Both the position numbers and the translations under genes were made by a program. Of a stretch of 64,000 nt of DNA, positions 23,583-54,717 are shown piece by piece; within the stretch, counting starts at the first letter, position 1; every line of letters begins with the position of its first letter. Source of the stretch: a virus; the IMG/VR virus record IMGVR_UViG_3300043446_004500, positions 1-64,000 of that record; one strand, given 5' to 3'. The notes beneath the pieces are model-generated. The model did no database searches and was not told where the DNA came from. It saw only the letters and a list, made by a program, of their open reading frames with translations.

Positions 23583-24668
23583 ATGGAAAGTAAGGAAATT
23601 CGAGGATTGATGGAAGCATATGTTTCAGTTTATGCTCCACAGCAAGAACTTAATGAAGAAGTTACAATTGCTGCTCATTATTTCTATGAAATGGGTTTGA
23701 ACGAAGATGGTGTTGATATTTTAATTGAAGAACTTGGTGTAGAAGAATTTGCCGAGTTTGTTTATGATATTTCTGAAGAGTATGTTTTAGCAGAAGCAAG
23801 AGCAGGTGGTGCAAGAATTGAACCTGTAACTGCAAAAGGACAAAAGTTTAAATCTGGAAAACCAACTGGCAAATCTCTTGCTAGACTTCGTGCTCAAAAA
23901 GAAGCAAGAAAATCCGCAGAAGAAAAAGCATCCGCATCAAAACCATCTGGATTGAAGGCATCCCTACAAAGACAATCTGCAGTTGCTACTGCTGCAAAGA
24001 AACAACCAAAGAAACCAGGTATTTTTGATCGTGTTGTAAGTGCTGTTGATAGAGGAATTGCAAGACATAATGCTGCTATGGGTGAACTGCAGAAAATGAA
24101 AGCAGCAACTGCCGTAACTGCAGGTAAAGTTAAAAAAGCTGCTGGACAATTTAAAAAGGGTTTTACTGGTGAAGAAATAGAACTTCAGGGTTATGTTGCA
24201 TCAAAGAAACTTGAAGAGGGCCATGATAGCAGAATGGGAAGAGGTGAAATGGGTGAACCAAAAGAAACTCAATACCCAAAAGTTGATAAGAAGCAGTATG
24301 ATAAGGATATGGATTTCTGGAAATCAAGAATTAGAACAGCTACAGCTCAGTTTAGATTGAAGAAAAGGGGTAAAGTCCCTAAAAAGGGTGGTAAGGATAT
24401 GTTTGAGCATATCCTAGAACACCTAGTTGCCGAAGGTTATGCGGATACAAATGAGGCAGCAATAGCTATTATGGCAAACATGAGTGAAGAATGGAAGCAG
24501 AGTATTGTTGAAGAAACCAAGAGAACAGAATATCTTCAAAAAAAATTTAATAAAGAAAATCAAAGAAAATCTGGTTCTGCTCATACTTACATTCCGGGAA
24601 AACAAAACACTGGACAAGCGTTAATAAAATCAAGAGAGTCTGAAAGACATATGCGTGGTGAGAATTGA
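23583..24668 (+). CDS. Basic late protein with capsid-targeting-type N-terminus and shared C-terminal module (family A)
   Basis: 361 residues. N-terminus MESKEIRGLMEAY has an L-M-E site at residues 9-11. A helical acidic segment then ends in VLAEARAGG (second L-A-E site, about residue 75). The middle is a disordered Ala/Lys-rich region, and the C-terminal module is EHILEHLVAEGYADTNEAAIAIMANMSEEW (about 275-303). The same N- and C-terminal modules occur in the products of 39361-39804 and 41475-42635. An exact late promoter lies 20 bases upstream. I infer a gp21-processed, DNA-condensing head-internal protein. Confidence 0.65.
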   Translation: MESKEIRGLMEAYVSVYAPQQELNEEVTIAAHYFYEMGLNEDGVDILIEELGVEEFAEFVYDISEEYVLAEARAGGARIEPVTAKGQKFKSGKPTGKSLARLRAQKEARKSAEEKASASKPSGLKASLQRQSAVATAAKKQPKKPGIFDRVVSAVDRGIARHNAAMGELQKMKAATAVTAGKVKKAAGQFKKGFTGEEIELQGYVASKKLEEGHDSRMGRGEMGEPKETQYPKVDKKQYDKDMDFWKSRIRTATAQFRLKKRGKVPKKGGKDMFEHILEHLVAEGYADTNEAAIAIMANMSEEWKQSIVEETKRTEYLQKKFNKENQRKSGSAHTYIPGKQNTGQALIKSRESERHMRGEN

Positions 24669-33573: not shown

Positions 33574-33772
33574 AGAAGTTTCTTCCGAACTTGGAGAACC
33601 TGATTGTAAATTAATTAAACCTTTTGTAATTGGAAAGGAAAGGACATTGGAACCTTTTCTATGCGAATATACTAAACAGGACACATTTATGATGAGTTCT
33701 GATAAGATTCTTACACTTGCTACTGCAACTCCAACTCTTCTTGAAAAATACGAGGACTTAATTAAAGAATGA
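33515..33772 (+). CDS. Second Sm/Lsm-like small protein, overlapping the preceding gene
   Basis: 85 residues: IKILVLTNNLILISQIEEVSSELGEPDCKLIKPFVI, then FMMSSDKILTLATATP. I remember close relatives directly upstream of gp43 in cyanophages. It overlaps the preceding gene by 59 bases in another frame and gp43 by 4 bases. The paired, overlapping arrangement suggests duplication or joint function. Confidence 0.6.
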   Translation: MKPIKILVLTNNLILISQIEEVSSELGEPDCKLIKPFVIGKERTLEPFLCEYTKQDTFMMSSDKILTLATATPTLLEKYEDLIKE

Positions 33773-36264
33773 GATTTTATACTAATGTCCAGATGATTGG
33801 AAATCAATTTCTGGTTCGTGGATATGAAAATGGCAAACACGTCATGTTTAAAGAAGAGTACTTTCCTACTCTTTTTGTAAAATCAAATAAACCGACAAAA
33901 TATAAAACACTTGAGGGTGAATTTGTAGAAGCAGTTAATCCAGGTACAGTTCGGGATTGTCGTGATTTTTACAAAAAATATGATTCTGTAGATAACTTTA
34001 AAATCTATGGAAATGACAGATACATCTATCAATATATTTCTGATAAGTATCCTGACGATGAAATTAAGTTTGACATTAGTAAAATTAAACTAGCAACACT
34101 AGACATTGAGGTAGCATCGGAGAATGGATTTCCAGATCCTAAAAACTGCGATGAAGAAATTCTTTTGATTACTATTCAAGATTATAATACGAAGAAAATT
34201 ACAACTTGGGGTACTAAACCCTATCAAAATACTAGAGAAGATGTAAAGTATATCTATTGCGAATCCGAGTATGCACTTTTAAATTCTTTCCTTCATACTT
34301 GGGAAAATAATATCCCAGAAGTCATTACTGGGTGGAATATTCAATTCTATGATATTCCTTATATTTGTGGAAGATTGACAAAAGTTCTTGGAGAAAAACG
34401 AATGAAAAGTTTTTCTCCATGGGGACTTGTGACTGAAAATGAAGTCTGGGCAAACAATAGGCAGCAGATATGTATGGATGTTGGGGGTATTACTCAACTA
34501 GATTATCTTGATCTTTATAAGAAATTTACTTATACTGCACAAGAAACATATCGTCTTGACCATATTGCTTCAGTAGAACTTGGACAGAAAAAGCTTGATC
34601 ACTCTGAGTTTGATACTTTCAAAGATTTCTACACTAAGGGTTGGAAAAAATTCGTAGACTATAACATCGTTGACGTAGAACTTGTTGACCGTTTGGAAGA
34701 CAAGATGAAACTGATTGAACTTGCGATTACGATGGCATATGACGCAAAGGTCAACTTTGCTGATGTGTTCTATCAAGTTCGTATGTGGGATAATATTATC
34801 TACACGTATTTAAAGAAACGAGATATTGTTATTCCCCCTAAGGATAAATCGGAAAAGAGTGAAAAGTATGCTGGTGCATATGTAAAGGAACCTATTCCTG
34901 GAGTTTATGATTGGGTTGTGAGTTTTGACTTGAACTCACTATATCCTCATTTGATCATGCAATATAATATTAGCCCAGAAACCTTGATGGACGAAAGGCA
35001 CCCATCCGTAAATGTGGATAAAATTCTAAACAAACAGATTACCTTTGAAATGTATAAGGATTATGCTGTATGTGCTAATGGGGCAATGTTCCGCAAAGAT
35101 GTTCGTGGATTTCTTCCTGAGTTGATGGAGAAGATCTACAATGAACGTGTCATTTTCAAAAAGAAAATGCTTGCTGCTGAGCAAGAGTATGAGAAGACAA
35201 AGAACAAGCAGTTAGTAAAAGAGATTGCACGGTGCAATAATATTCAGATGGCACGTAAGATTCAACTTAACTCTGCTTATGGTGCTATTGGTAATCAGTA
35301 TTTTCGTTATTACAAACTAGAAAATGCTGAAGCAATTACTCTTTCTGGGCAGGTATCCATTCAATGGATCATGAATAAGATGAATTCTTATTTGAATAAA
35401 ATTCTTAAGACAGGAAATGTAGATTATGTTATTGCTTCTGATACCGACTCTCTTTATGTTAATATGGGTCCTCTGGTTGAGAGTGTATTCAAGGGAAGAG
35501 AGAAAACTACTGAAAGCATTGTCTCATTCCTTGATAAGGTCTGTCAGATGGAATTTGAAAAGTATATTGAAAGTTCTTACCAAGAATTGGCTGAGTATGT
35601 AAATGCCTATGATCAGAAAATGTTCATGAAACGTGAATGTATTTCTGAACGTGGAATTTGGACAGCAAAGAAAAGATATATTTTAAGTGTCTGGGACAGT
35701 GAAGGTGTTCGTTATGAAGAACCTAAACTAAAGATCAAAGGTATTGAAGCAATCAAATCATCTACTCCTGCTCCTTGTAGGAAAATGTTGAAAGATTCAT
35801 TTAAGATTATGATGACTGGAACTGAAACTGATATGATCAATTATATTGATAAATGCAGATCGGAATTTAATAAATTCCCTCCAGAAGACATTTCATTTCC
35901 TCGATCAGCTTCAGATGTTCGTAAATATCAATCTTCTTCTGACATATATTCAAAAGGAACTCCAATACATATCAGGGGATGTATCTTGTTCAATCATTAT
36001 ATTAAGGACAAAAAACTAACAAAGAAATATTCTTTGATTCAGAATGGAGAAAAGATCAAGTTTTGCTATCTTAAGAAACCAAATCCAATTCATGAGAATG
36101 TAATCTCTTTCATTCAAGATTTTCCAAAAGAACTTGCCATAACTCAATATGTTGATTATGATACGCAGTTTGAGAAGGGATTTCTTGAACCACTTAAAAC
36201 AATTCTAAATGCAATTGGATGGAATTGTGAAAGAAAAATGACCCTTGATTCTTTCTTCATGTGA
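33769..36264 (+). CDS. gp43: DNA polymerase gp43 (family B)
   Basis: 831 residues. The proofreading exonuclease starts with LDIEVASENG (about 111). Polymerase motif A is DLNSLYPHLIMQYN (about 387), motif B KIQLNSAYGAIGNQYF (about 500) and motif C SDTDSLYV (about 557). The C-terminal helix ends SFFM, similar to clamp-binding tails. It is the replicative polymerase working with gp45. Somewhat shorter than T4 gp43. No intein or split is seen. Confidence 0.98.
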   Translation: MRFYTNVQMIGNQFLVRGYENGKHVMFKEEYFPTLFVKSNKPTKYKTLEGEFVEAVNPGTVRDCRDFYKKYDSVDNFKIYGNDRYIYQYISDKYPDDEIKFDISKIKLATLDIEVASENGFPDPKNCDEEILLITIQDYNTKKITTWGTKPYQNTREDVKYIYCESEYALLNSFLHTWENNIPEVITGWNIQFYDIPYICGRLTKVLGEKRMKSFSPWGLVTENEVWANNRQQICMDVGGITQLDYLDLYKKFTYTAQETYRLDHIASVELGQKKLDHSEFDTFKDFYTKGWKKFVDYNIVDVELVDRLEDKMKLIELAITMAYDAKVNFADVFYQVRMWDNIIYTYLKKRDIVIPPKDKSEKSEKYAGAYVKEPIPGVYDWVVSFDLNSLYPHLIMQYNISPETLMDERHPSVNVDKILNKQITFEMYKDYAVCANGAMFRKDVRGFLPELMEKIYNERVIFKKKMLAAEQEYEKTKNKQLVKEIARCNNIQMARKIQLNSAYGAIGNQYFRYYKLENAEAITLSGQVSIQWIMNKMNSYLNKILKTGNVDYVIASDTDSLYVNMGPLVESVFKGREKTTESIVSFLDKVCQMEFEKYIESSYQELAEYVNAYDQKMFMKRECISERGIWTAKKRYILSVWDSEGVRYEEPKLKIKGIEAIKSSTPAPCRKMLKDSFKIMMTGTETDMINYIDKCRSEFNKFPPEDISFPRSASDVRKYQSSSDIYSKGTPIHIRGCILFNHYIKDKKLTKKYSLIQNGEKIKFCYLKKPNPIHENVISFIQDFPKELAITQYVDYDTQFEKGFLEPLKTILNAIGWNCERKMTLDSFFM

Positions 36265-36294: not shown

Positions 36295-37302
36295 ATGGAT
36301 TTTCTTAAAGACATTGTAAAAGAAATTGGTGACGATTACACCAAACTCGCATCTGACATTGATGAAACAGAAACTTATGTTGACACAGGTTCGTATATTT
36401 TTAATGCACTGGTTTCAGGTAGTATTTTTGGTGGTGTATCTGGGAATAAGATTACTGCTATTGCTGGAGAGTCTTCTACTGGAAAGACTTTCTTCAGCCT
36501 CGCCGTTGTTAAGAATTTTCTTAATAATAATCCCGATGGTTATTGTCTCTACTTTGATACTGAGGCTGCCATTACTAAATCTCTCTTAGAAAGTCGTGGA
36601 GTTGACACATCAAGGATTGTTGTGGTTAACGTTGTCACTGTAGAAGAGTTTCGCACTAAGGCACTTAAAGCGGTTGATCTTTATATGAAGAAACCTGAGG
36701 AAGAACGTAGTCCGTGCATGTTCGTTCTTGATTCTTTGGGGATGCTCTCTACAAGTAAAGAAATTAATGATGCACTGAATGAAAAGGAAGTTAGAGATAT
36801 GACTAAATCTCAACTTATTAAAGGTGCTTTCCGAATGCTAACACTTAAACTAGGTCAAGCAAATGTTCCACTTATTGTCACAAATCATACATACGATGTC
36901 ATCGGAGCTTACGTACCAACGAAAGAAATGGGAGGAGGTTCTGGACTCAAATACGCAGCAAGTACGATCATTTATCTCAGCAAAAAGAAAGAAAAAGATG
37001 GAACAGAAGTGGTCGGAAATATTATCAAGGCTAAGACTGCTAAATCACGTCTGAGTAAAGAAAACAAAGATGTAGAAATTCGTTTGTTTTATGATGAACG
37101 TGGTCTTGATCGTTATTATGGTCTTCTTGAACTTGGTGAAATTGGTGGACTATGGAAAAATGTAGCAGGACGTTATGAGATTGATGGTAAAAAACTTTAT
37201 GCTAAACAGATTCTGAAAGAACCTGAAGTATATTTCACTGAAGAAGTAATGCAACAATTGGACGAAATCGCACGTAAGGAATTTAGTTATGGAGAAAGTT
37301 GA
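36295..37302 (+). CDS. uvsX: RecA-like recombinase UvsX
   Basis: 335 residues. Walker A GESSTGKTF (about 58-66), Walker B MFVLDSLGML (about 142-151) and KEMGGGSGLKYAASTIIYL near 210. It catalyses strand exchange and starts recombination-dependent replication, loaded by UvsY. The gene has its own promoter and overlaps the helicase gene by 14 bases. Confidence 0.97.
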   Translation: MDFLKDIVKEIGDDYTKLASDIDETETYVDTGSYIFNALVSGSIFGGVSGNKITAIAGESSTGKTFFSLAVVKNFLNNNPDGYCLYFDTEAAITKSLLESRGVDTSRIVVVNVVTVEEFRTKALKAVDLYMKKPEEERSPCMFVLDSLGMLSTSKEINDALNEKEVRDMTKSQLIKGAFRMLTLKLGQANVPLIVTNHTYDVIGAYVPTKEMGGGSGLKYAASTIIYLSKKKEKDGTEVVGNIIKAKTAKSRLSKENKDVEIRLFYDERGLDRYYGLLELGEIGGLWKNVAGRYEIDGKKLYAKQILKEPEVYFTEEVMQQLDEIARKEFSYGES

Positions 37303-38620
37303 GTTTCTAATTCTTAGAAACCTATTGCATAATGAGGAGTTTATTAGGAAAGTACTTCCATTTTTAAAATCAGAATATTTTGAAGATCAAAATCAAAAAA
37401 TTGTATTTGAAGAGATTTCTTCTTTTGTTCAACAATACAACCAACTAGCAACTAAAGAAGTTCTTTTTATTGAAGTAGAAAAAAGAAAAGACATCAACGA
37501 ATCTTCTTTTAAAGAAGTTTCTCATTTAATTGATTGTTTGGACAACGTTGTAGTTGAATTAGAATGGTTGACAACTACAACAGAAAAGTGGTGTCGTGAC
37601 CGTGCCATTTATTTGGCATTGATGGAATCTATTCATATTGCTGATGGCAAGGATGAAAAGAAAAGTAGAGATAGTATTCCTTCAATTCTTTCTGATGCAC
37701 TTGCAGTAAGTTTTGATAATCATGTTGGACATGATTATTTGCTTGATTATGAAAAAAGATATGAAGCATATCATAAAAAGGAGGATAAAATTGAATTTGA
37801 TCTGGAATACTTTAACAAAATTACCAAAGGTGGTCTCCCTAACAAAACTCTTAATATCGCTCTTGCTGGTACGGGTGTCGGCAAATCTCTATTCATGTGC
37901 CACGTTGCTAGCTCCGTCTTGTTGCAAGGACGGAACGTTTTGTACATTACGTTGGAAATGGCGGAAGAACGAATTGCTGAACGAATTGACGCAAATCTCT
38001 TGAATGTTCCTATTCAAGATATTGTAGATTTGCCAAAACAAATGTTTGAGAACAAGGTCAACAACCTTGCAAAGAAAACTCAAGGATCACTTATAATTAA
38101 GGAATATCCAACTGCTTCAGCACATGCAGGACATTTTAAAGCACTTCTTAATGAACTTGCACTTAAGAAGTCATTTAGACCTGATATTATTTTTATTGAT
38201 TACCTTAATATTTGTGCTTCCTCTAGGTATAAGGGAAATCTTTCTGTTAATTCTTATTCGTATATTAAAGCAATTGCAGAGGAACTTAGAGGACTCGCCG
38301 TGGAGTTTAATGTCCCGATTGTCTCCGCTACTCAGACCACTCGTTCAGGGTATTGCTTGGACTTGAAAACACAAGTTCAAACACCGCAAGGTATGAAAGA
38401 ACTTTCAAATATTCAAGTTGGAGATTTGGTGCTTTCTAATACTGGTTATAATGAAGTTCTAAATGTCTTTCCAAAATCTAAAAAGAAATCTTATAAGATT
38501 ACTTTGGATGATGGTAAAGAAATCATTTGTAGTGAAGAACATTTGTTCCCAACTCAAAATGGTGAAGTGAATATCAAAGGGGGTTTGAAAGAAGGTATGT
38601 GTCTTTATGTAAAGGAATAG
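37289..38620 (+). CDS. gp41: Replicative helicase gp41, N-terminal piece fused to the N-part of a split intein
   Basis: 443 residues. 1-355 is the DnaB-type helicase: an N-terminal helical domain, Walker A GTGVGKS (about 194-200), Walker B IIFIDYLNIC (about 305) and a final SATQTTRSGY. At Cys356 the helicase sequence stops and an 88-residue intein N-domain begins. The helicase C-terminus is missing here and is encoded at 39885-40307. Active helicase therefore needs trans-splicing. This half is probably transcribed with uvsX. Confidence 0.96.
   Translation: MEKVEFLILRNLLHNEEFIRKVLPFLKSEYFEDQNQKIVFEEISSFVQQYNQLATKEVLFIEVEKRKDINESSFKEVSHLIDCLDNVVVELEWLTTTTEKWCRDRAIYLALMESIHIADGKDEKKSRDSIPSILSDALAVSFDNHVGHDYLLDYEKRYEAYHKKEDKIEFDLEYFNKITKGGLPNKTLNIALAGTGVGKSLFMCHVASSVLLQGRNVLYITLEMAEERIAERIDANLLNVPIQDIVDLPKQMFENKVNNLAKKTQGSLIIKEYPTASAHAGHFKALLNELALKKSFRPDIIFIDYLNICASSRYKGNLSVNSYSYIKAIAEELRGLAVEFNVPIVSATQTTRSGYCLDLKTQVQTPQGMKELSNIQVGDLVLSNTGYNEVLNVFPKSKKKSYKITLDDGKEIICSEEHLFPTQNGEVNIKGGLKEGMCLYVKE
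38354..38617 (+). other. Split intein N-part (88 residues, gp41-1 type)
   Basis: It starts at the catalytic Cys in CLDLKTQVQTPQG (block A), continues with NIQVGDLVLSNTGYN, and has block B CSEEHLFPT with its His. The length of 88 and the sequence agree, apart from a few substitutions, with my memory of the gp41-1 IntN found in marine metagenomes. Confidence 0.95.
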
Positions 38621-38625
38621 TATGT

Positions 38626-38665
38626 GTAAGTTCTACTTCTTATAAATAATAGTAGTATAACTTAC
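38626..38665 (+). promoter_or_regulatory. Hairpin with TATAAATA in its loop, before the GIY-YIG gene
   Basis: GTAAGTT (38626-38632) pairs with AACTTAC (38659-38665); CTACT (38633-38637) pairs with AGTAG (38651-38655). The exact late promoter 38641-38648 fills the loop. The ATG is at 38670. Confidence 0.7.
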
Positions 38666-38669
38666 TGAT

Positions 38670-39335
38670 ATGAAAGTAAAGATTTATTTGATTACCAACA
38701 CAGCAGTCAATCCACATATGTATTATGTTGGATTGACTAAAAATGAATTAAATAGAAGATTACAAGAACATATTACTCTTGGAAGGCACGAAGGAAATAA
38801 ACTTCTGTCTGATGCTATTATTGAATATGGTAAAAGAAACTTTACTATTGAGGTAATAGAAGAAGTTGATGAGAGTGAAGCAAGAATAAAAGAAGATTAT
38901 TATATTCGCAAATATAAATCTCATTATAGAGATGGGTGTGGATATAATATGAAATATGAAACTTGCAATCATGAGAAACACTATCACGGAGCAAATCAAG
39001 AACTAATAGAAGAGAATATTAGAAATGGTAGGGTGTGGAACTATGGAATAAGTTTTTCTACACAATCAAAAGAAAAAATGAGAAAAACTAAAAAACATAG
39101 ATACTCTCTTGGTCTTTATACTAAATTTAATACAAACCATACACAAGAAACAAAAGATAAAATATCAGAAAGTAAAAGAGGACAAAAACTTACAGAGGAA
39201 CATAAAAATAATATTTCTAAATCTTCTGTTGGTAGAACTTGGATTTATAATCCAGAGTTAGATGAAAGAAAGTTTGTAAAACAGGATGAGTTGGAAATGT
39301 TCTTGGAAAGTGGTTGGAAGAAAGGTAGGTTATAA
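38670..39335 (+). CDS. GIY-YIG homing endonuclease in the fractured helicase gene
   Basis: 221 residues. The N-terminal nuclease domain has the GIY-YIG-type pair KIYLITN and YYVGLTKNELNRRLQEH (about 17-33), with a later Glu in the catalytic region. The C-terminal part holds NUMOD3-like repeats (TKDKISESKRGQKLTEEHKNNISKSSVGR) and ends in a short helix. Such enzymes cut intein-less or insert-less alleles and spread by repair. It has a late promoter inside a hairpin loop, as T4 mobile endonucleases do. Confidence 0.88.
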   Translation: MKVKIYLITNTAVNPHMYYVGLTKNELNRRLQEHITLGRHEGNKLLSDAIIEYGKRNFTIEVIEEVDESEARIKEDYYIRKYKSHYRDGCGYNMKYETCNHEKHYHGANQELIEENIRNGRVWNYGISFSTQSKEKMRKTKKHRYSLGLYTKFNTNHTQETKDKISESKRGQKLTEEHKNNISKSSVGRTWIYNPELDERKFVKQDELEMFLESGWKKGRL

Positions 39336-39338
39336 ATA
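39331..39338 (+). promoter_or_regulatory. Late promoter TATAAATA
   Basis: Exact TATAAATA overlapping the end of the endonuclease gene, 22 bases before the ATG at 39361. Confidence 0.65.
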
Positions 39339-39360
39339 AACTTATAGTGTAAAAAAAAAG

Positions 39361-39804
39361 ATGGACGCACAAAATTTTCGTGGGATTCAAGAAGCATATA
39401 TGGAAGTTGTTAGTAACAATAATGAGTTGAGTGAAATGTCTTATAAAAAACTTCCTGTCGGCAAAATGATGAGAAAAGTTGAATATAGGGCAGAAAGAGA
39501 AGCAGATACGAGAGCAGATGCAGAAACAGCAGACACAACTGCTTTTATGAGTCATAATCGGGCATTAAGAGCACACAAACGCGCAGAAAGAAATAAAGAA
39601 AGAAGCAATAGAATGATAAATGTTGCTGATACTCATAGTAAGAAAGCAGCAAAGGCAAAATCAAAACTTAAAAAAGAACAAGTAGACCTATACGACATCA
39701 TTCTTTCGCACCTTCTTGATGAAGGATATGCTGAAACACCAGAAGCAGCAGAAGCAATTATGGTGAATATGAGTGAAGAGTGGAGAGATAGTATTATTGG
39801 TTGA
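39361..39804 (+). CDS. Basic late protein of family A (capsid-targeting N-terminus) inside the gp41 insert
   Basis: 147 residues. The start MDAQNFRGIQEAY has an I-Q-E site like its relatives at 23583 and 41475. A highly charged Arg/Ala/Glu helix follows, and the shared C-terminal module DLYDIILSHLLDEGYAETPEAAEAIMVNMSEEW (about 108-140). It lacks the long middle of the other two. Late promoter directly upstream. Its location as cargo of a homing cassette is unusual. Probable packaged head-internal protein. Confidence 0.65.
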   Translation: MDAQNFRGIQEAYMEVVSNNNELSEMSYKKLPVGKMMRKVEYRAEREADTRADAETADTTAFMSHNRALRAHKRAERNKERSNRMINVADTHSKKAAKAKSKLKKEQVDLYDIILSHLLDEGYAETPEAAEAIMVNMSEEWRDSIIG

Positions 39805-39825
39805 TAAAATCATAAAATCTTTCTC

Positions 39826-39865
39826 AACCACTCACCTTGCTTTTGGTGAGTGGTTTTGTTATAAT
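39826..39865 (+). promoter_or_regulatory. Terminator with an overlapping sigma-70-type promoter for the second gp41 piece
   Basis: AACCACTCACC (39826-39836) pairs with GGTGAGTGGTT (39845-39855). The loop and 3' arm begin the promoter: TTGCTT (39837-39842), 17 bases, TATAAT (39860-39865). It gives the helicase C-piece its own early-type promoter independent of the insert. Confidence 0.78.
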
Positions 39866-39884
39866 GTGAATAGGTAAAAACTCT

Positions 39885-39995
39885 ATGATGCTGAAAAAAA
39901 TTCTAAAAATTGAAGAACTTGATGAAAGAGAACTTATAGATATTGAAGTGTCTGGAAATCATTTGTTCTATGCGAATGCTATTCTCACACATAAT
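39885..39995 (+). other. Split intein C-part (37 residues, gp41-1 type)
   Basis: It ends in THN, with Ser as the first C-extein residue. The length of 37 and the sequence agree with gp41-1 IntC as I remember it, with Ala instead of Asp four residues after FY in FYANAIL. Confidence 0.95.
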
Positions 39996-40307
39996 AGTAG
40001 TTCTGATGTTGAACTTACTGATACTAGTGAGTCCTTTGGTCTCCCTGCTACTGCTGATCTTATGTTTGCCCTTATTAGTACAGAAGAGTTGGAAGGGATG
40101 GGACAAATACTTGTGAAGCAACTTAAAAATCGTTATAATGATCCAACAATTTTCAAGAGATTTGTTCTTGGAATTGACAGAGCAAAAATGCGTCTTTATG
40201 ATTGCGAACAATCTGCACAAGATAATATACTTGACTCTGGACAAGAAGGAGAGTATGATTATGAAGAAAGAAAACCTAAAAAATCATTTGAAGGATTTAA
40301 ATTCTAA
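39885..40307 (+). CDS. gp41: Split intein C-part fused to the C-terminal piece of helicase gp41
   Basis: 140 residues. 1-37 is the intein C-domain: ELIDIEVSGNHLFYANAIL (block F) and the splice junction THN|S (block G). 38-140 is the C-extein with SSDVELTDTSES, LISTEELEGMGQILVKQLKNRYND and an acidic basic-ended tail. After splicing, 355 plus 103 residues give a 458-residue helicase, close to T4 gp41. Start ATG at 39885, with a second ATG next to it. Confidence 0.95.
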   Translation: MMLKKILKIEELDERELIDIEVSGNHLFYANAILTHNSSSDVELTDTSESFGLPATADLMFALISTEELEGMGQILVKQLKNRYNDPTIFKRFVLGIDRAKMRLYDCEQSAQDNILDSGQEGEYDYEERKPKKSFEGFKF

Positions 40308-40308
40308 T

Positions 40309-40722
40309 ATGACACAAGTTATTGATACAAACAAATATATTGAATTCGTTCGTCAAACTACAAGTCCTGCAAGTAGTGATCTAGCACAACTTCTTGCTCG
40401 TATTACTGAACTTGAAGCACGGGATGATGCTGATGTTCCTCGTCTTCTGACTGCTGCTCTTGGTATGAGTGCTGAGGCAGGTGAGTTTACTGAGGTTGTC
40501 AAAAAAATCATCCTTCAAGGCAAACCTTATAATGAAGAAAATTCTTTTCACCTGAAACGTGAACTTGGTGACATCTGTTGGTATCTTTCTCAGGCATTTA
40601 TGGCACTTGATACTAACTTTGAAGAGATTCTTCAGATGAACTATGAGAAACTGAGTGCTCGTTATCCAGAGGGAACGTTTGACGTATGGAGGAGTGAAAA
40701 TCGTGTGGAGGGAGACCTGTGA
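40309..40722 (+). CDS. mazG: MazG-like nucleotide pyrophosphohydrolase
   Basis: 137 residues from the ATG one base after gp41-C. LTAALGMSAEAGEFTEVVKK (about 54-73) and LKRELGDICWYLSQAF (about 85-100) carry the EExxE...ExxD metal-binding pattern of MazG enzymes. Marine cyanophages commonly encode MazG; it may hydrolyse dGTP/dCTP or alter ppGpp. An overlapping GTG starts the next gene. Confidence 0.9.
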   Translation: MTQVIDTNKYIEFVRQTTSPASSDLAQLLARITELEARDDADVPRLLTAALGMSAEAGEFTEVVKKIILQGKPYNEENSFHLKRELGDICWYLSQAFMALDTNFEEILQMNYEKLSARYPEGTFDVWRSENRVEGDL

Positions 40723-40904
40723 GTAAAGAAAAACAAGTAACAATTAAAATGGATGCTCGTCAAGCAGCAGCAGTTCGTCAAATTCTTTTTGAGGCGCAAA
40801 AAGGATACACTTATGATGAAGTGAGTGTTCCTCCTCGTATTGCTGATGTTCGTTCTGTAATCCAAACTCTTGATGATAATATTGGTGCAGTTCTGGGTAT
40901 TTGA
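40719..40904 (+). CDS. Small conserved protein after mazG
   Basis: 61 residues, GTG start overlapping the mazG stop (GTGA). Helical, with TIKMDARQAAAVRQILFEAQKGYTYDE. No family recognised. Probably translated with mazG. Confidence 0.6.
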   Translation: MSKEKQVTIKMDARQAAAVRQILFEAQKGYTYDEVSVPPRIADVRSVIQTLDDNIGAVLGI

Positions 40905-40910
40905 TAAATA
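40903..40910 (+). promoter_or_regulatory. Late promoter (GATAAATA)
   Basis: GATAAATA, 15 bases before the ATG at 40925. GTATTT (40897-40902) and AAATAC (40906-40911) form a small hairpin over it. Confidence 0.45.
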
Positions 40911-40924
40911 CTTAGAAAACGACA

Positions 40925-41437
40925 ATGTATTTTTCTGAGTGGAGAAAACTTCAAAGAGACTGTGGGATGTTTAACATTTCGCAGTCTTTTGTTGCAGAAG
41001 GAATATCTAAAGATGATTTTGAAAAGATAGTTCATACCTTCTTGCCTTTTGTAAAAAAAGAATTGGGTATAAAGGAACTTCCAAAAATTCATTTTGTTGA
41101 TGATCCAAAGTTTGCAAAAAGAATCGCAGCATTTGGTCAAATTAAAGATAATCGTATTGTAATTGATATTCAGGGTCGTCAAACTATGGATATCTTGAGA
41201 ACAGTTGCTCATGAATTGACACATTATCGTCAACATAAAAGAGGAACTATTGGTAGTGGTCATGCAGGAAGTTCCACTGAAAATGAGGCAAACAAACTTG
41301 CTGGAACTATAGTAAGAAAGTTTGGTGAGAAACATTCTGGTCTATTTCAATTACCGTCAGTAAATGAAGCAAAGAAAAGAAAAAGAAGAAATATGATTGA
41401 TATTGATTCTGAGCATTATCCAATAGAGTTGTCTTGA
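40925..41437 (+). CDS. Late putative zinc metallopeptidase
   Basis: 170 residues. The zinc motif VAHELTHYRQHKRG (HExxH, about 97-101) is followed by STENEANKLA, which could supply the third ligand. The N-terminus MYFSEWRKLQ, then FVAEG, is hydrophobic-aromatic and might act like the targeting peptides nearby; V-A-E is a weak gp21 site. The tail is basic (KKRKRRN). Late promoter upstream. A packaged or late protease is an inference; its target is unknown. Confidence 0.7.
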   Translation: MYFSEWRKLQRDCGMFNISQSFVAEGISKDDFEKIVHTFLPFVKKELGIKELPKIHFVDDPKFAKRIAAFGQIKDNRIVIDIQGRQTMDILRTVAHELTHYRQHKRGTIGSGHAGSSTENEANKLAGTIVRKFGEKHSGLFQLPSVNEAKKRKRRNMIDIDSEHYPIELS

Positions 41438-41468: not shown

Positions 41469-42635
41469 ATGGCGATGGATTCAAAGGAAATTAGAGGTTT
41501 GTGCGAAGCATATTCTGCCGTTTATAATGAAGATCTTAGAGATGAATTAGAAACTTTTTCAATCGAGGAAGATCTCTCAATCATTGATGATCTAAGTGAT
41601 AATGAGTTGGATTTAGTAATGGAAAATATTTTTCTCTCAGGAGAATTTGATATTGATGAGTGCTTTGAATCTTTAGATCTTGTTCTCAGTGAAGCAACAG
41701 TAACAAGTTCTGAGGATAGACCTTCTGGTTCTGCAAGAGTTACTTCAAGTGCAGAAAGACCAAGTAGAGCAAAGAGAACTTCAGAAAGACAAAAACAAGT
41801 TAGAGTTGGTAGAATTGCTCAAGCAGCTCAACGTGCTGGAGAAAGGGTAAAGTCGGGTGTTGTAGGTAAAGCAAAGGCAGCAGGTGCAAAGGTTGCTTCT
41901 GCTACTCAAAAGGTAAAGGGATTTTTGGGTAAGGTTGGTCGTGCTGCTGCGGCAGGAGCATCTGCTGCTAGAAAAGAATTCGGTGGTGAGGCAGGAAGAG
42001 AAGCAAAGGCAAGAAAAACTGGTCGTCAAATGAGACGAGCAGCAAGAAAACAAGCATCTGCTGCTAGAGCAAAAGATACTAGTGCTTTCCAAAAACCAAA
42101 AGCACCTGTTGGAACTTCAGCAAATCCCAGAATTGGTCAACCTGGAAAAGAAAGACCAGCACTTCCTGCAGCAAAGACTAAAACAGTTTCTGTAGATAGA
42201 AGAAAAGCAGCAGCTGCTAAACTTGCTTCTGCAGCTGCTGGATCTGGACCATCCGGATCAGTTCAGCAAGGACAACCTGCTGGAACTTTTAAAACCAAAA
42301 AGTCTAGAATGCAAGCACAAAAAAGAGAGGCAAGACTTACTGCAGCAGAGAGTTTTGAACTTCTGGATATTTTAGTTCAAGATATGATTAATGATGGATA
42401 TGTAAACAGTGTTCATGAAGCATACGATTTAATTGAGAATTTGGATGATACTCAAACTATCAATTTAGTTGAATCATATCTAATTGAAGAGGTAGAAACT
42501 CTAGATCTTTATGATGTAGTTCTTGAGCATCTGATTGAGAATGGATATGCTGAAACTGAAGAGGCAGCAGAAGTCATCATGGTAAACATGAGTGAAGAGT
42601 GGAGAGAAGAAATTCTACGTAAAAATAATGGATGA
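41469..42635 (+). CDS. Basic late protein of family A with two predicted gp21 sites
   Basis: 388 residues from 41469; starting at 41475 gives MDSKEIRGLCEAY, which matches the relatives better. L-C-E near residue 13 and VLSEAT (L-S-E, about 75) are cleavage-type sites. A long Ala/Arg/Lys/Ser-rich disordered region with histone-like composition follows (about 80-285). Then comes a helical repeat (LLDILVQDMINDGYVNSVHEAYDLIENL) and the shared DLYDVVLEHLIENGYAETEEAAEVIMVNMSEEW module. Probable DNA-condensing internal head protein. Confidence 0.65.
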   Translation: MAMDSKEIRGLCEAYSAVYNEDLRDELETFSIEEDLSIIDDLSDNELDLVMENIFLSGEFDIDECFESLDLVLSEATVTSSEDRPSGSARVTSSAERPSRAKRTSERQKQVRVGRIAQAAQRAGERVKSGVVGKAKAAGAKVASATQKVKGFLGKVGRAAAAGASAARKEFGGEAGREAKARKTGRQMRRAARKQASAARAKDTSAFQKPKAPVGTSANPRIGQPGKERPALPAAKTKTVSVDRRKAAAAKLASAAAGSGPSGSVQQGQPAGTFKTKKSRMQAQKREARLTAAESFELLDILVQDMINDGYVNSVHEAYDLIENLDDTQTINLVESYLIEEVETLDLYDVVLEHLIENGYAETEEAAEVIMVNMSEEWREEILRKNNG

Positions 42636-51283: not shown

Positions 51284-51973
51284 ATGGAAGGTCGTATTTA
51301 CAAAATAACAAATCAATCCAATGGTAAGTTCTATGTTGGTATGACCAGAAAGAAATTGAAATATAGATTTAATAATCATTGTTATGATGCATTAATTAGA
51401 AACTCAAATTCTTATTTTCATAAAGCAATAAGAAAATATGGTAAAGAAAATTTTATCATTGAAGAAATTGAGGTGTGTGAAAAAAATTTGCCCGATAGAG
51501 AAGTATTTTGGATTTCTAAATTAAAACCTGATTATAACCAAACTATTGGTGGAGATAATGGTATTCTTGGATTTAGACATACCGAAGAAACTAAAAACTT
51601 TCTTTCCAAAAAAAGAAAGGGAAAATATACTGGAGAAAAAAATCCTTTTTATGGGCAGCATCATACACAAAAAACAAAAGATAAACTAAGTCAAATGAGA
51701 AAAGGACAACCATCACCTTGCGGATTTGCTGGAAAATCACATAAAGAGGAAAGTAAATCTAAAACTTCTCAAACACTTAAAAATAATCCAAATGTAAAAA
51801 GAACCAAAGTATTTCAGTATGATATTGAAGGAAACTTTTTAAGGGAGTTCCAATCTATTAGTGATGCTTCTAAATTCGTAGGAACAACTCCTTCTAATAT
51901 AAAATATACCTGCGAAGGAAAATTTAATCATTGTAAAGGATATAAATGGAGTTATGAAAAACTAAATACCTAA
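51284..51973 (+). CDS. GIY-YIG homing endonuclease between nrdA and nrdB
   Basis: 229 residues. GRIYKITNQSNGKFYVGMTRKKLKYRFNNH (about 3-32) is the GIY-YIG core with its Arg; a catalytic Glu lies near 60-65. NUMOD3-type repeats (NPFYGQHHTQKTKDKLSQMRKGQ and GKSHKEESKSKTSQTL) and a C-terminal NUMOD1-like helix-turn-helix (EFQSISDASKFVGTTPSNIKYTCEG) bind DNA. Same general plan as the 38670-39335 enzyme. Free-standing, Seg-like. Confidence 0.9.
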   Translation: MEGRIYKITNQSNGKFYVGMTRKKLKYRFNNHCYDALIRNSNSYFHKAIRKYGKENFIIEEIEVCEKNLPDREVFWISKLKPDYNQTIGGDNGILGFRHTEETKNFLSKKRKGKYTGEKNPFYGQHHTQKTKDKLSQMRKGQPSPCGFAGKSHKEESKSKTSQTLKNNPNVKRTKVFQYDIEGNFLREFQSISDASKFVGTTPSNIKYTCEGKFNHCKGYKWSYEKLNT

Positions 51974-51986
51974 AAACAAATAAGAA

Positions 51987-52451
51987 ATGAAAACATTTCA
52001 AGAGTTTATTGCAGAAGCAAAAAGAATAAAATTTTATACATTACATCACGGCACTTCTCCTGAAGCAAAAAAATCAATTCAACAATCTGGATTTAGAAAT
52101 TCTGGTTCTGCTGGTGCTTATGGTCCTGGAGTATATACTTCTACTAATAGAAGAGTAGCAAATGTACACGGGAGTAGTACAATAACTATGAGAGTTCCTG
52201 CAAAGAAAGTAAAAACAATGGATATTAAACCTAAATCTCAATCTGGAACTAATGCATTAGATAAAGGTGAAACTGCAGTTAGAATACCAAATGCAGGAAC
52301 AAGAACAAGTGCATATAGAAATCTAAAAGGAAAAAAACATTTTGTTGTAGTTGATAAAGATGTAGCAAATAAAAATGTTGTAAAAAATCCTTCACCTACA
52401 CTTAAATCTGGTAAAGACAAAAGAACAAAAACACAACCAAAGAAAAAATAA
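51987..52451 (+). CDS. Capsid-targeted ADP-ribosyltransferase-like protein
   Basis: 154 residues. MKTFQEFIAE|AKR is almost identical to the T4 internal-protein targeting peptide, with the I-A-E site at 8-10. The body resembles the PARP/diphtheria-toxin ART fold: TLHHGTSPEAKKSIQQSGF (His21), GAYGPGVYTSTNRRVANVHG (Tyr50) and DKGETAVRIPNAG (Glu95), giving an H-Y-E-type triad. The tail is very basic. By analogy with T4 Alt, it may be injected and modify host proteins. The enzyme assignment is from motif pattern only. Confidence 0.68.
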   Translation: MKTFQEFIAEAKRIKFYTLHHGTSPEAKKSIQQSGFRNSGSAGAYGPGVYTSTNRRVANVHGSSTITMRVPAKKVKTMDIKPKSQSGTNALDKGETAVRIPNAGTRTSAYRNLKGKKHFVVVDKDVANKNVVKNPSPTLKSGKDKRTKTQPKKK

Positions 52452-54134: not shown

Positions 54135-54290
54135 ATGTCAAAAAATCAACTTACAAAAGATGAATTAAGAGTTCGTGTTTTAAAACTAAAAGATAGATTA
54201 TATAAAGATCAACCAAGTTGGGACTCTAAAGGTCTTGCCCATAAATATCTGAATGCAGTTCTTGACATAATTGATGAGTACAGATATTGA
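54135..54290 (+). CDS. Small basic helical protein
   Basis: 51 residues starting right after the terminator T run: MSKNQLTKDELRVRVLKLKDRLYKDQ, then HKYLNAVLDIIDEYRY. Reading just behind a terminator suggests low or regulated expression. Its end overlaps the next gene. Confidence 0.5.
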   Translation: MSKNQLTKDELRVRVLKLKDRLYKDQPSWDSKGLAHKYLNAVLDIIDEYRY

Positions 54291-54717
54291 CTATGAGAAT
54301 CCTTGGAACTATAATGGAGTTCCATTTACTAGTGCAGACATTAATGATTATTTTGGGTTTGTTTATTTGATAGAAAATAAACTGAATGGTAGAAAATATA
54401 TTGGCAGAAAATATCTATGGAGTTTTAGAACTCCTAAAGGTAAAAAAAGAAAAGTAAAATCAGAATCAGATTGGAAAAAATACTATGGGTCTTGTCCGGA
54501 ACTTAAAGAAGACATTGAAAAATTTGGCAGAGAAAATTTTAGTAGAACTATCTTATCATTACATAAAACAAAGGGCAAAACAAACTACGAAGAGACACGA
54601 CAACTTTTCACAAATAACGTACTCACGGAGTCCCTTGACAACGGATATCCAGCCTATTACAATAGTAACATCCTCTCAAGGTACTACCGAAAAGATTACT
54701 ATGGAAACCCAGATTGA
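54274..54717 (+). CDS. GIY-YIG-like putative endonuclease
   Basis: 147 residues from the ATG at 54274. FGFVYLIENKLNGRKYIGRKYLWSF (about 25-49) is a GIY-YIG-type core of the short form common in T4-like phages, and ELKEDIEKFGRENFSRTIL supplies the usual helix. The domain is not followed by NUMOD repeats. Whether it is a mobile endonuclease or a host-DNA nuclease is unclear. Confidence 0.7.
   Translation: MSTDIDYENPWNYNGVPFTSADINDYFGFVYLIENKLNGRKYIGRKYLWSFRTPKGKKRKVKSESDWKKYYGSCPELKEDIEKFGRENFSRTILSLHKTKGKTNYEETRQLFTNNVLTESLDNGYPAYYNSNILSRYYRKDYYGNPD

Follow-up and report, generated by a model that had tools for sequence, protein, structure and literature searches.

A gp41 helicase gene fractured at a gp41-1-type split intein, with genes for a homing endonuclease and a passenger in the gap, in T4-like cyanophage DNA

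Anatomy of the fractured gp41 gene

We analysed a 64-kb stretch of DNA (positions 1 to 64,000, hereafter the window) of IMG/VR record IMGVR_UViG_3300043446_004500, a metagenome contig of 153,677 bp and uncertain completeness, in which the gene for the helicase gp41 is broken at a split intein. We think it very probable that the two resulting polypeptides are trans-spliced by a gp41-1 split intein into a 458-residue helicase and that the whole unit homes, including the two genes housed in the gap between the coding pieces, one for a homing endonuclease and one for a passenger (orf147). The arrangement, a "fractured gene", is already known in kind: Dassa et al. 2009 (NAR 37:2560) are said to have described conserved enzyme genes interrupted by a split intein, the two halves flanking a free-standing endonuclease gene. 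The gp41 gene of the window matches that plan, with its split intein and an endonuclease gene between the halves, and may go beyond it in having an extra, exchangeable passenger and, among relatives, loci that lack the endonuclease and helicases fractured twice. In kind the case is an ordinary one; what sets it apart is the richness of its relatives. It combines a gp41 shown to be fractured at a gp41-1 intein, a mobile unit whose passenger can be exchanged and, among the relatives, helicases that naturally have two fractures.

All features of the locus lie on the plus strand. The first open reading frame (ORF; 37289-38620, 443 amino acids) consists of 355 gp41 residues ending TTRSGY (the N-extein, 37289-38353), followed by the 88-residue N-terminal part of the intein (IntN, 38354-38617), which begins at Cys356 and is closed by a TAG stop codon. 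The second (39885-40307, 140 amino acids) has its own ATG and consists of the 37-residue C-terminal part of the intein (IntC, 39885-39995), ending THN|S, and 103 helicase residues counted from Ser+1, plus a stop codon (the C-extein, 39996-40307). The exteins sum to 458 residues (355 + 103), equal to the best gp41 match, that of Synechococcus phage S-SCSM1, which is uninterrupted at 1377 bp (458 codons and a stop). The phrog_19 profile matched residues 2-355 of the first piece (E 2e-109) and placed the second at profile positions 512-595; the N-extein also matched PDB entries 8due and 8dtp ('DnaB-like replicative helicase', E 1e-76). These translations agree with the piece lengths, junction residues and product length proposed in an earlier reading of the same DNA (the original prediction). 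The interval given there, 37289-40307, holds for the gp41 pieces, but the endonuclease gene (38670-39335) and orf147 (39361-39804) inside it had been overlooked.

The intein itself is of the gp41-1 type, as had been predicted. Compared with PDB entry 6qaz ('cyanophage-like gp41-1 intein'), 82 of 87 aligned IntN residues and 36 of 37 IntC residues were identical (118/124 pooled, about 95%), so that IntN differs at five positions and IntC at one. The residues of a class 1 gp41-1 split intein are present, namely Cys1, the HN that closes IntC and the Ser+1 nucleophile; published work gives the gp41-1 nucleophiles as Cys1/Ser+1 (PMC11766414) and the native junction as SSS (PMC7090010), and counts gp41-1 among the fastest of the split inteins that laboratories use (PMC13014065, PMC11766414). 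The likeness to gp41-1 (PDB 6qaz, 6riz) extends to the host protein family, the half lengths, the split point and the division into a Cys1-side and a Ser+1-side half; unlike those entries, the window adds full flanks, an endonuclease, a passenger gene and control-like signals. Judged from sequence, no other reading of the locus comes close to protein trans-splicing by this intein, and we infer splicing on that basis. The original prediction had spoken of an intein from unassigned marine reads that here gained a genomic home; a cyanophage-like origin was already in print (title of PDB 6qaz; PMC10882715), and what stands is the usefulness of having the complete locus, flanked on both sides, within a long contig. 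Among 50,697 phage records, from which those nearest the window may have been left out, we found 212 IntN matches (E 0.01), all below 60% identity, and only four endonuclease matches at E 1e-8, all in Vibrio phages and again below 60% identity.

The surroundings also agree with the T4-like home that had been proposed. We read the gene order as 43 (33769-36264), uvsX (36295-37302) and 41 (37289-38620), and 374 of the 485 records that matched the gp41 region were Synechococcus phages; on these two grounds of gene order and similarity we conclude that the virus is a T4-like cyanophage. An intact gp41 elsewhere, which the original prediction had named as the observation that would speak against it, was not found: over the 153,677-bp record, possibly incomplete, phrog_19 gave only the two pieces and a weak match in uvsX (E 4e-4). 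The helicase gene, which encodes an essential enzyme, is broken at the intein, no intact copy was found in that record, and a free-standing homing endonuclease gene lies between the halves. As far as sequence can establish it, gp41 of the window is confirmed as a split-intein fractured gene, and the observation is real.

Relatives of the locus and mobility of the unit

Scanning IMG/VR with IntN yielded 49 related loci, with full IntNs at 83-100% identity, or 50 loci with the window. Because the inteins cross-match one another, locus states were counted by an identity-filtered tally, with IntC counted at an identity of at least 80%. A stop codon followed IntN within 12 codons in 48 of the 49 relatives, a regularity that chance does not explain; the 49th (L050) met the contig end. 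Both halves were present in 43 relatives, none of which had a contiguous gp41-1-type intein (0/43, all with IntN at 83% identity or more), and 36 of these 43 had an endonuclease in the gap. Across all 50 loci, an endonuclease was seen in 41, and two of the nine others (L004 and L050) were contig ends. The N-extein was present in 47 loci, without a frame break before IntN in any of them, the other three beginning too late; IntC was present in 44, of which 43 read openly into the C-extein and one (L031) stopped. Over 8 kb, one relative (L003) did not differ from the window. At L031:4565-5580 we observed orf147 in an endonuclease-less gap next to an IntN longer by eight codons, a decayed or misassembled state.

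The endonuclease gene in the window (38670-39335) encodes a 221-residue protein of the GIY-YIG type, with matches to phrog_314 (E 1e-24), phrog_5123 ('homing endonuclease with GIY-YIG motif', E 3e-11) and NUMOD3. Aligned with it, 17 other endonucleases from the gp41 site were 78-94% identical, and Y6, Y19, G21, R30 and E75 were invariant.

The clearest sign of mobility came from comparing the window with L002. The two are colinear over 1699 bp (38327-40025) with one mismatch, and this block comprises both intein halves, the endonuclease and orf147, bounded by 27 bp of the 5' extein and the first 30 bp of the 3' extein. By contrast, the helicase DNA flanking the block is only 63-90% identical per 100-bp bin, with the edge bins including the block ends. 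A near-identical unit amid diverged helicase DNA is, at the sequence level, direct evidence of recent transfer.

The same pattern held across the relatives. We compared third codon positions in 703 pairs of 38 loci (duplicates L003, L086-L088 and L118 dropped, the identical lineage L005/L007-L009 kept), 693 of which had diverged exteins. Mean identity over the 703 pairs was 0.55 for the N-extein after Walker A and 0.82 for IntN, and it was 0.81 for the endonuclease and 0.58 for the C-extein in the pairs that had those segments. The values for the 693 diverged pairs were 0.54 for the N-extein after Walker A, 0.82 for IntN, 0.57 for the C-extein (426 pairs) and 0.81 for the endonuclease (403 pairs), and IntN exceeded the extein in every pair (693/693). 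The five codons 5' of the junction were at 0.77. Identity at first and second extein positions stayed at 0.83-0.93, and we therefore consider both gp41 halves to be under purifying selection. Distances for IntN and the endonuclease were correlated (Mantel r 0.52; 29 loci, L007-L009 dropped besides the duplicates). Together, the segment identities and distances fit what homing of the whole unit would predict, plus some shared descent.

We propose that gp41 would be made as two polypeptides, whose pieces the gp41-1 split intein would join by protein trans-splicing; because the helicase would be restored at the protein level, the DNA of the gap would be free for the endonuclease and orf147. The endonuclease would cut the uninterrupted gp41 of phages that infect the same cell, either at the insertion site, the TCAGGGTAT|AGTAGT junction, or close to it, and repair would then copy IntN, the endonuclease, the passenger and IntC with short extein flanks. 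The homing endonuclease and passenger gene would thus explain why gp41 is fractured. On this account, gp41-1 is placed in its native setting and would have spread together with an endonuclease and a passenger, the whole unit measuring 1.7 kb.

Several observations weigh against this account. Seven of the 43 two-half relatives have no endonuclease (L005, L007-L009, L031, L047 and L049), indicating that the endonuclease is not needed for gp41 to stay fractured. The Pfam GIY-YIG model did not reach E 0.01 on the 221-residue protein, and its AlphaFold2 model was poor (mean pLDDT 53). Since the loci were fetched by IntN similarity, the identity of IntN is inflated, although that of the endonuclease is not. 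Extein distances were weakly correlated with those of IntN (Mantel r 0.15, P 0.036) and of the endonuclease (r 0.23, P 0.005), which points to some shared descent. L031 stops at the end of IntC, with no C-extein match. Finally, the record may be incomplete, which limits the absence of another gp41.

Three other explanations can be set beside trans-splicing and homing, each of them improbable. The two pieces might work as separate helicase subunits, with inert intein parts and no splicing; gp41 is a hexameric helicase and might tolerate nicks. However, the intein is more conserved than the exteins and keeps Cys1, THN and Ser+1, and the break falls inside the DnaB_C domain, with the match ending at position 181 of the 255 in the profile. 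Moreover, the intein is near-identical to one that PMC13014065 presents as a proven fast intein. We regard separate subunits as very unlikely. Slightly less likely still is that gp41 is a dead remnant, replaced by another helicase of host or phage origin. The possible incompleteness of the record, the broken appearance of L031 and a second gp41-like ORF in L027 would suit such a replacement, but only one gp41 was found in the record, the exteins appear to be under purifying selection, and the frames are open before IntN in all 47 loci with an N-extein. The L027 ORF (L027:1873-2658) lacks a Walker A motif and lies directly downstream of a fractured gp41. Least likely of all is that the gap reflects an intron (group I or II) or faulty assembly: GIY-YIG endonucleases also reside in introns, but the intron was dropped after Rfam gave no match at E 0.1 in 37000-41000, and an artefact is opposed by the stop that follows IntN in 48 of 49 contigs, which come from many metagenomes, and by the identity of L003 over 8 kb.

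Passenger genes and expression signals

Under the preferred reading of trans-splicing and homing, the passenger travels with the unit, and it differs between loci. Tallying plus-strand ORFs of at least 40 amino acids between the halves in the 50 loci, we found the orf147 family in 18 (L003 included; three with an extra 56-residue ORF), a family of 177-187 residues in seven, and a 75-residue remnant of the latter, without an endonuclease, in six (the four compared were identical). A DNA methyltransferase was present in three (L028, L030 and L040; Pfam N6_N4_Mtase, E 3e-29 in L028), an ART/KptA-like protein with an internal-head-protein-like N-terminus in one (L038; phrog_5470, E 2e-5, Pfam below cut-off) and other single ORFs in two; eight loci had no passenger and five were cut by the contig end. 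The methyltransferase genes lie between the endonuclease and IntC, where they might protect or compete.

The passenger in the window, orf147 (39361-39804), matched phrog_3708, a family of unknown function, and is possibly a virion protein. We aligned 15 proteins of its type, 14 of the 18 from the gap (the others being twins) and one from the Walker A gap of L043. About 17 N-terminal and about 40 C-terminal residues were near-invariant; the cores between them, of 58-142 residues, were mostly unrelated, with common cores in the window and L024 and in L011 and L036, and in all of them K+R (15-31%) exceeded D+E (10-19%). The C-terminal tag recurs on two larger ORFs of the window (24360-24509 and 42480-42617). 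Scanning for the tag returned 560 relatives, and we retained the 80 best. At 79 loci (L138-L216), counted with eight gp41-fracture loci left out, 36 of 78 tagged genes (22 of 55 with identical proteins collapsed) had a diverse GIY-YIG or HNH endonuclease-like neighbour, compared with 17 of 348 genes at least three places away, a background biased low; the contrast is overstated because the endonuclease set was drawn largely from the neighbours of tagged genes.

Proteins of the orf147 type may be exchangeable late cargo, as suggested by ends that hardly vary, cores that do, and endonucleases that are often encoded next to them. According to PMC9026906, T4 internal head proteins are basic and poorly conserved apart from their targeting ends, and both ends of T4 Alt are trimmed. 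The orf147 type is similarly basic, with a variable core and conserved ends; unlike the internal head proteins, orf147 shows no T4-type capsid targeting sequence at its N-terminus and has no match to their family, phrog_2667 giving none at E 0.01 and phrog_3708 being the only match, and for this reason a role as virion cargo is put forward as a hypothesis. Matches to the internal-head-protein family were found only for the L038 passenger and a protein encoded at 51987-52451 of the window, and were weak (E 0.006-0.007, first 22-26 residues). The latter gene lies 3' of a second GIY-YIG endonuclease gene at 51284, which stands behind a late-type motif between ORFs read as nrdA and nrdB; the first 26 residues of its product carry the weak match, and the protein is ART-like by eye.

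A tentative extension, which we consider possible but doubtful, is that the fracture serves as a mobile cargo bay: the split intein would move together with the endonuclease and a late gene that can be exchanged, with cargo drawn from a virion-targeted pool (the orf147 type and the L038 ART/KptA-like protein) or from other genes such as the DNA methyltransferase. Homing would then spread packaged effectors, and repeated invasion would lead to helicases in three pieces. If this held, homing would be a route by which virion effectors spread. In the parts of the literature searched, a scope outside which Dassa et al. 2009 fell, we recognised no cargo carried with homing endonucleases.

Signals in and around the gap point to separate control of the genes there. 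The motif TATAAATA, which we take to be the T4 late promoter core, occurs at 38641-38648 before the endonuclease gene and at 39331-39338 before orf147. The window has ten copies on the plus strand and none on the minus strand, eight of them 28-49 nt 5' of a start (56 starts listed): 29 nt for the endonuclease, 30 nt for orf147, 31 nt for the 51284 endonuclease, and 28 and 29 nt for the two ORFs with the orf147 tag. All 41 loci that have an endonuclease carry the motif no more than 60 nt upstream of that gene, and the motif precedes orf147 in 15 of 18. For orf147, the motif match 30 nt upstream is a putative late expression signal.

Between orf147 and the second helicase piece, we noted an intrinsic-terminator-like hairpin with an 11-bp stem (39826-39855, z -3.9) and an extended -10 promoter-like site, TGTTATAAT (39857-39865). 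All nine bases of the latter were unchanged in 17 of 17 orf147-class loci reaching the region (the window and its twin L003 counted), as well as in L038. The sigma-70 scan did not list the site, its -35 match is weak, and promoter-like sites in 37000-41000 were no commoner than in shuffles (11 versus 16.0); since that scan gave no support, the promoter-like call rests on conservation. Terminator-like sites in the same interval numbered three, against a shuffle mean of 1.4. The hairpin stem has a both-sided pair change in L015 and a one-sided intermediate in L012, and it is mismatched in L019, L021, L036 and L039, which counts against strict conservation. The original prediction had given each gp41 piece its own promoter. 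This fails for the first piece, which starts (37289) within the 3' end of uvsX and therefore most simply belongs to the uvsX operon; for the second, a promoter-like site is present, judged from sequence and conservation. We infer promoter and terminator activity and timing from these motifs, and regulation looks insulated, with the first piece after uvsX, late-type motifs for the endonuclease and orf147, and the hairpin and promoter-like site before the second piece.

Second inteins and three-piece helicases

Eleven of the 49 relatives carried a second intein. In L005 and L007-L009, a contiguous intein of 142 residues sits in the Walker A loop (ALAG|C...HN|TGVGKS), and it is also contiguous (142 residues) in L084 and L090. 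In L013, L037 and L043, the Walker A intein is split after 16-17 residues, and the gap contains a reverse-strand HNH-type endonuclease in L013, a one-base stop/start overlap in L037 and an orf147 homologue in L043. Only the C part was seen in L011, L014 and L040. Scanning with the Walker A intein returned 75 loci, part of them already seen. PMC13014065 describes VidaL as atypically split, with an IntN of 16 residues; we liken the Walker A inteins of L013, L037, L043 and others to it by split length, although the window has no such Walker A split and some relatives carry this intein contiguous. The contiguous, stop/start-overlap, passenger-filled and endonuclease-less states among the relatives bear on how split inteins originate.

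In L034, a second split intein lies 12 residues past the gp41-1 site, with 6 nt between its halves; of the three pieces that code the helicase at L034:148-3255, the middle polypeptide consists of IntC, 12 extein residues and IntN. L013, L034 and L043 each encode on one contig a helicase in three pieces with two split inteins, and in L037 the contig ends before the C-piece is reached. These relatives thus supply natural three-piece helicases with two split inteins; we recognised no such natural protein in the portion of the literature searched, Dassa et al. 2009 being outside its scope. IntN of the L034 type was present in six loci (L034 and L122-L126), and we take this intein to be gp41-8-like. 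It is complete in L125, with a 354-residue ORF between the halves, and L122 likewise has a 354-residue ORF there, but with a break in the helicase frame and a cut end.

The UNVERIFIED record of Shigella phage ESh36 (ON528746.1, Tequatrovirus) has a split-intein fracture of gp41 with overlapping genes (L051:2882-5862), located at the L034-type site. As in the window, a split intein breaks gp41 and an ORF lies between the halves, here in a deposited coliphage-type genome. It differs in its insertion site (AE|C ... TKN|SAGLP), in its IntN (44% identical over residues 1-81) and in a middle ORF without a recognised endonuclease family. We labelled this ORF and the 354-residue ORF of L122 and L125 as presumably Vsr-like; searches of Pfam and PHROGs returned no endonuclease family for the middle ORFs of L122 and ESh36. 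A comparable fracture in a Tequatrovirus record would make the question testable in laboratory strains. Elsewhere in the window, a SegE-like GIY-YIG gene (54271-54717; Pfam E 2e-54) follows nrdB.

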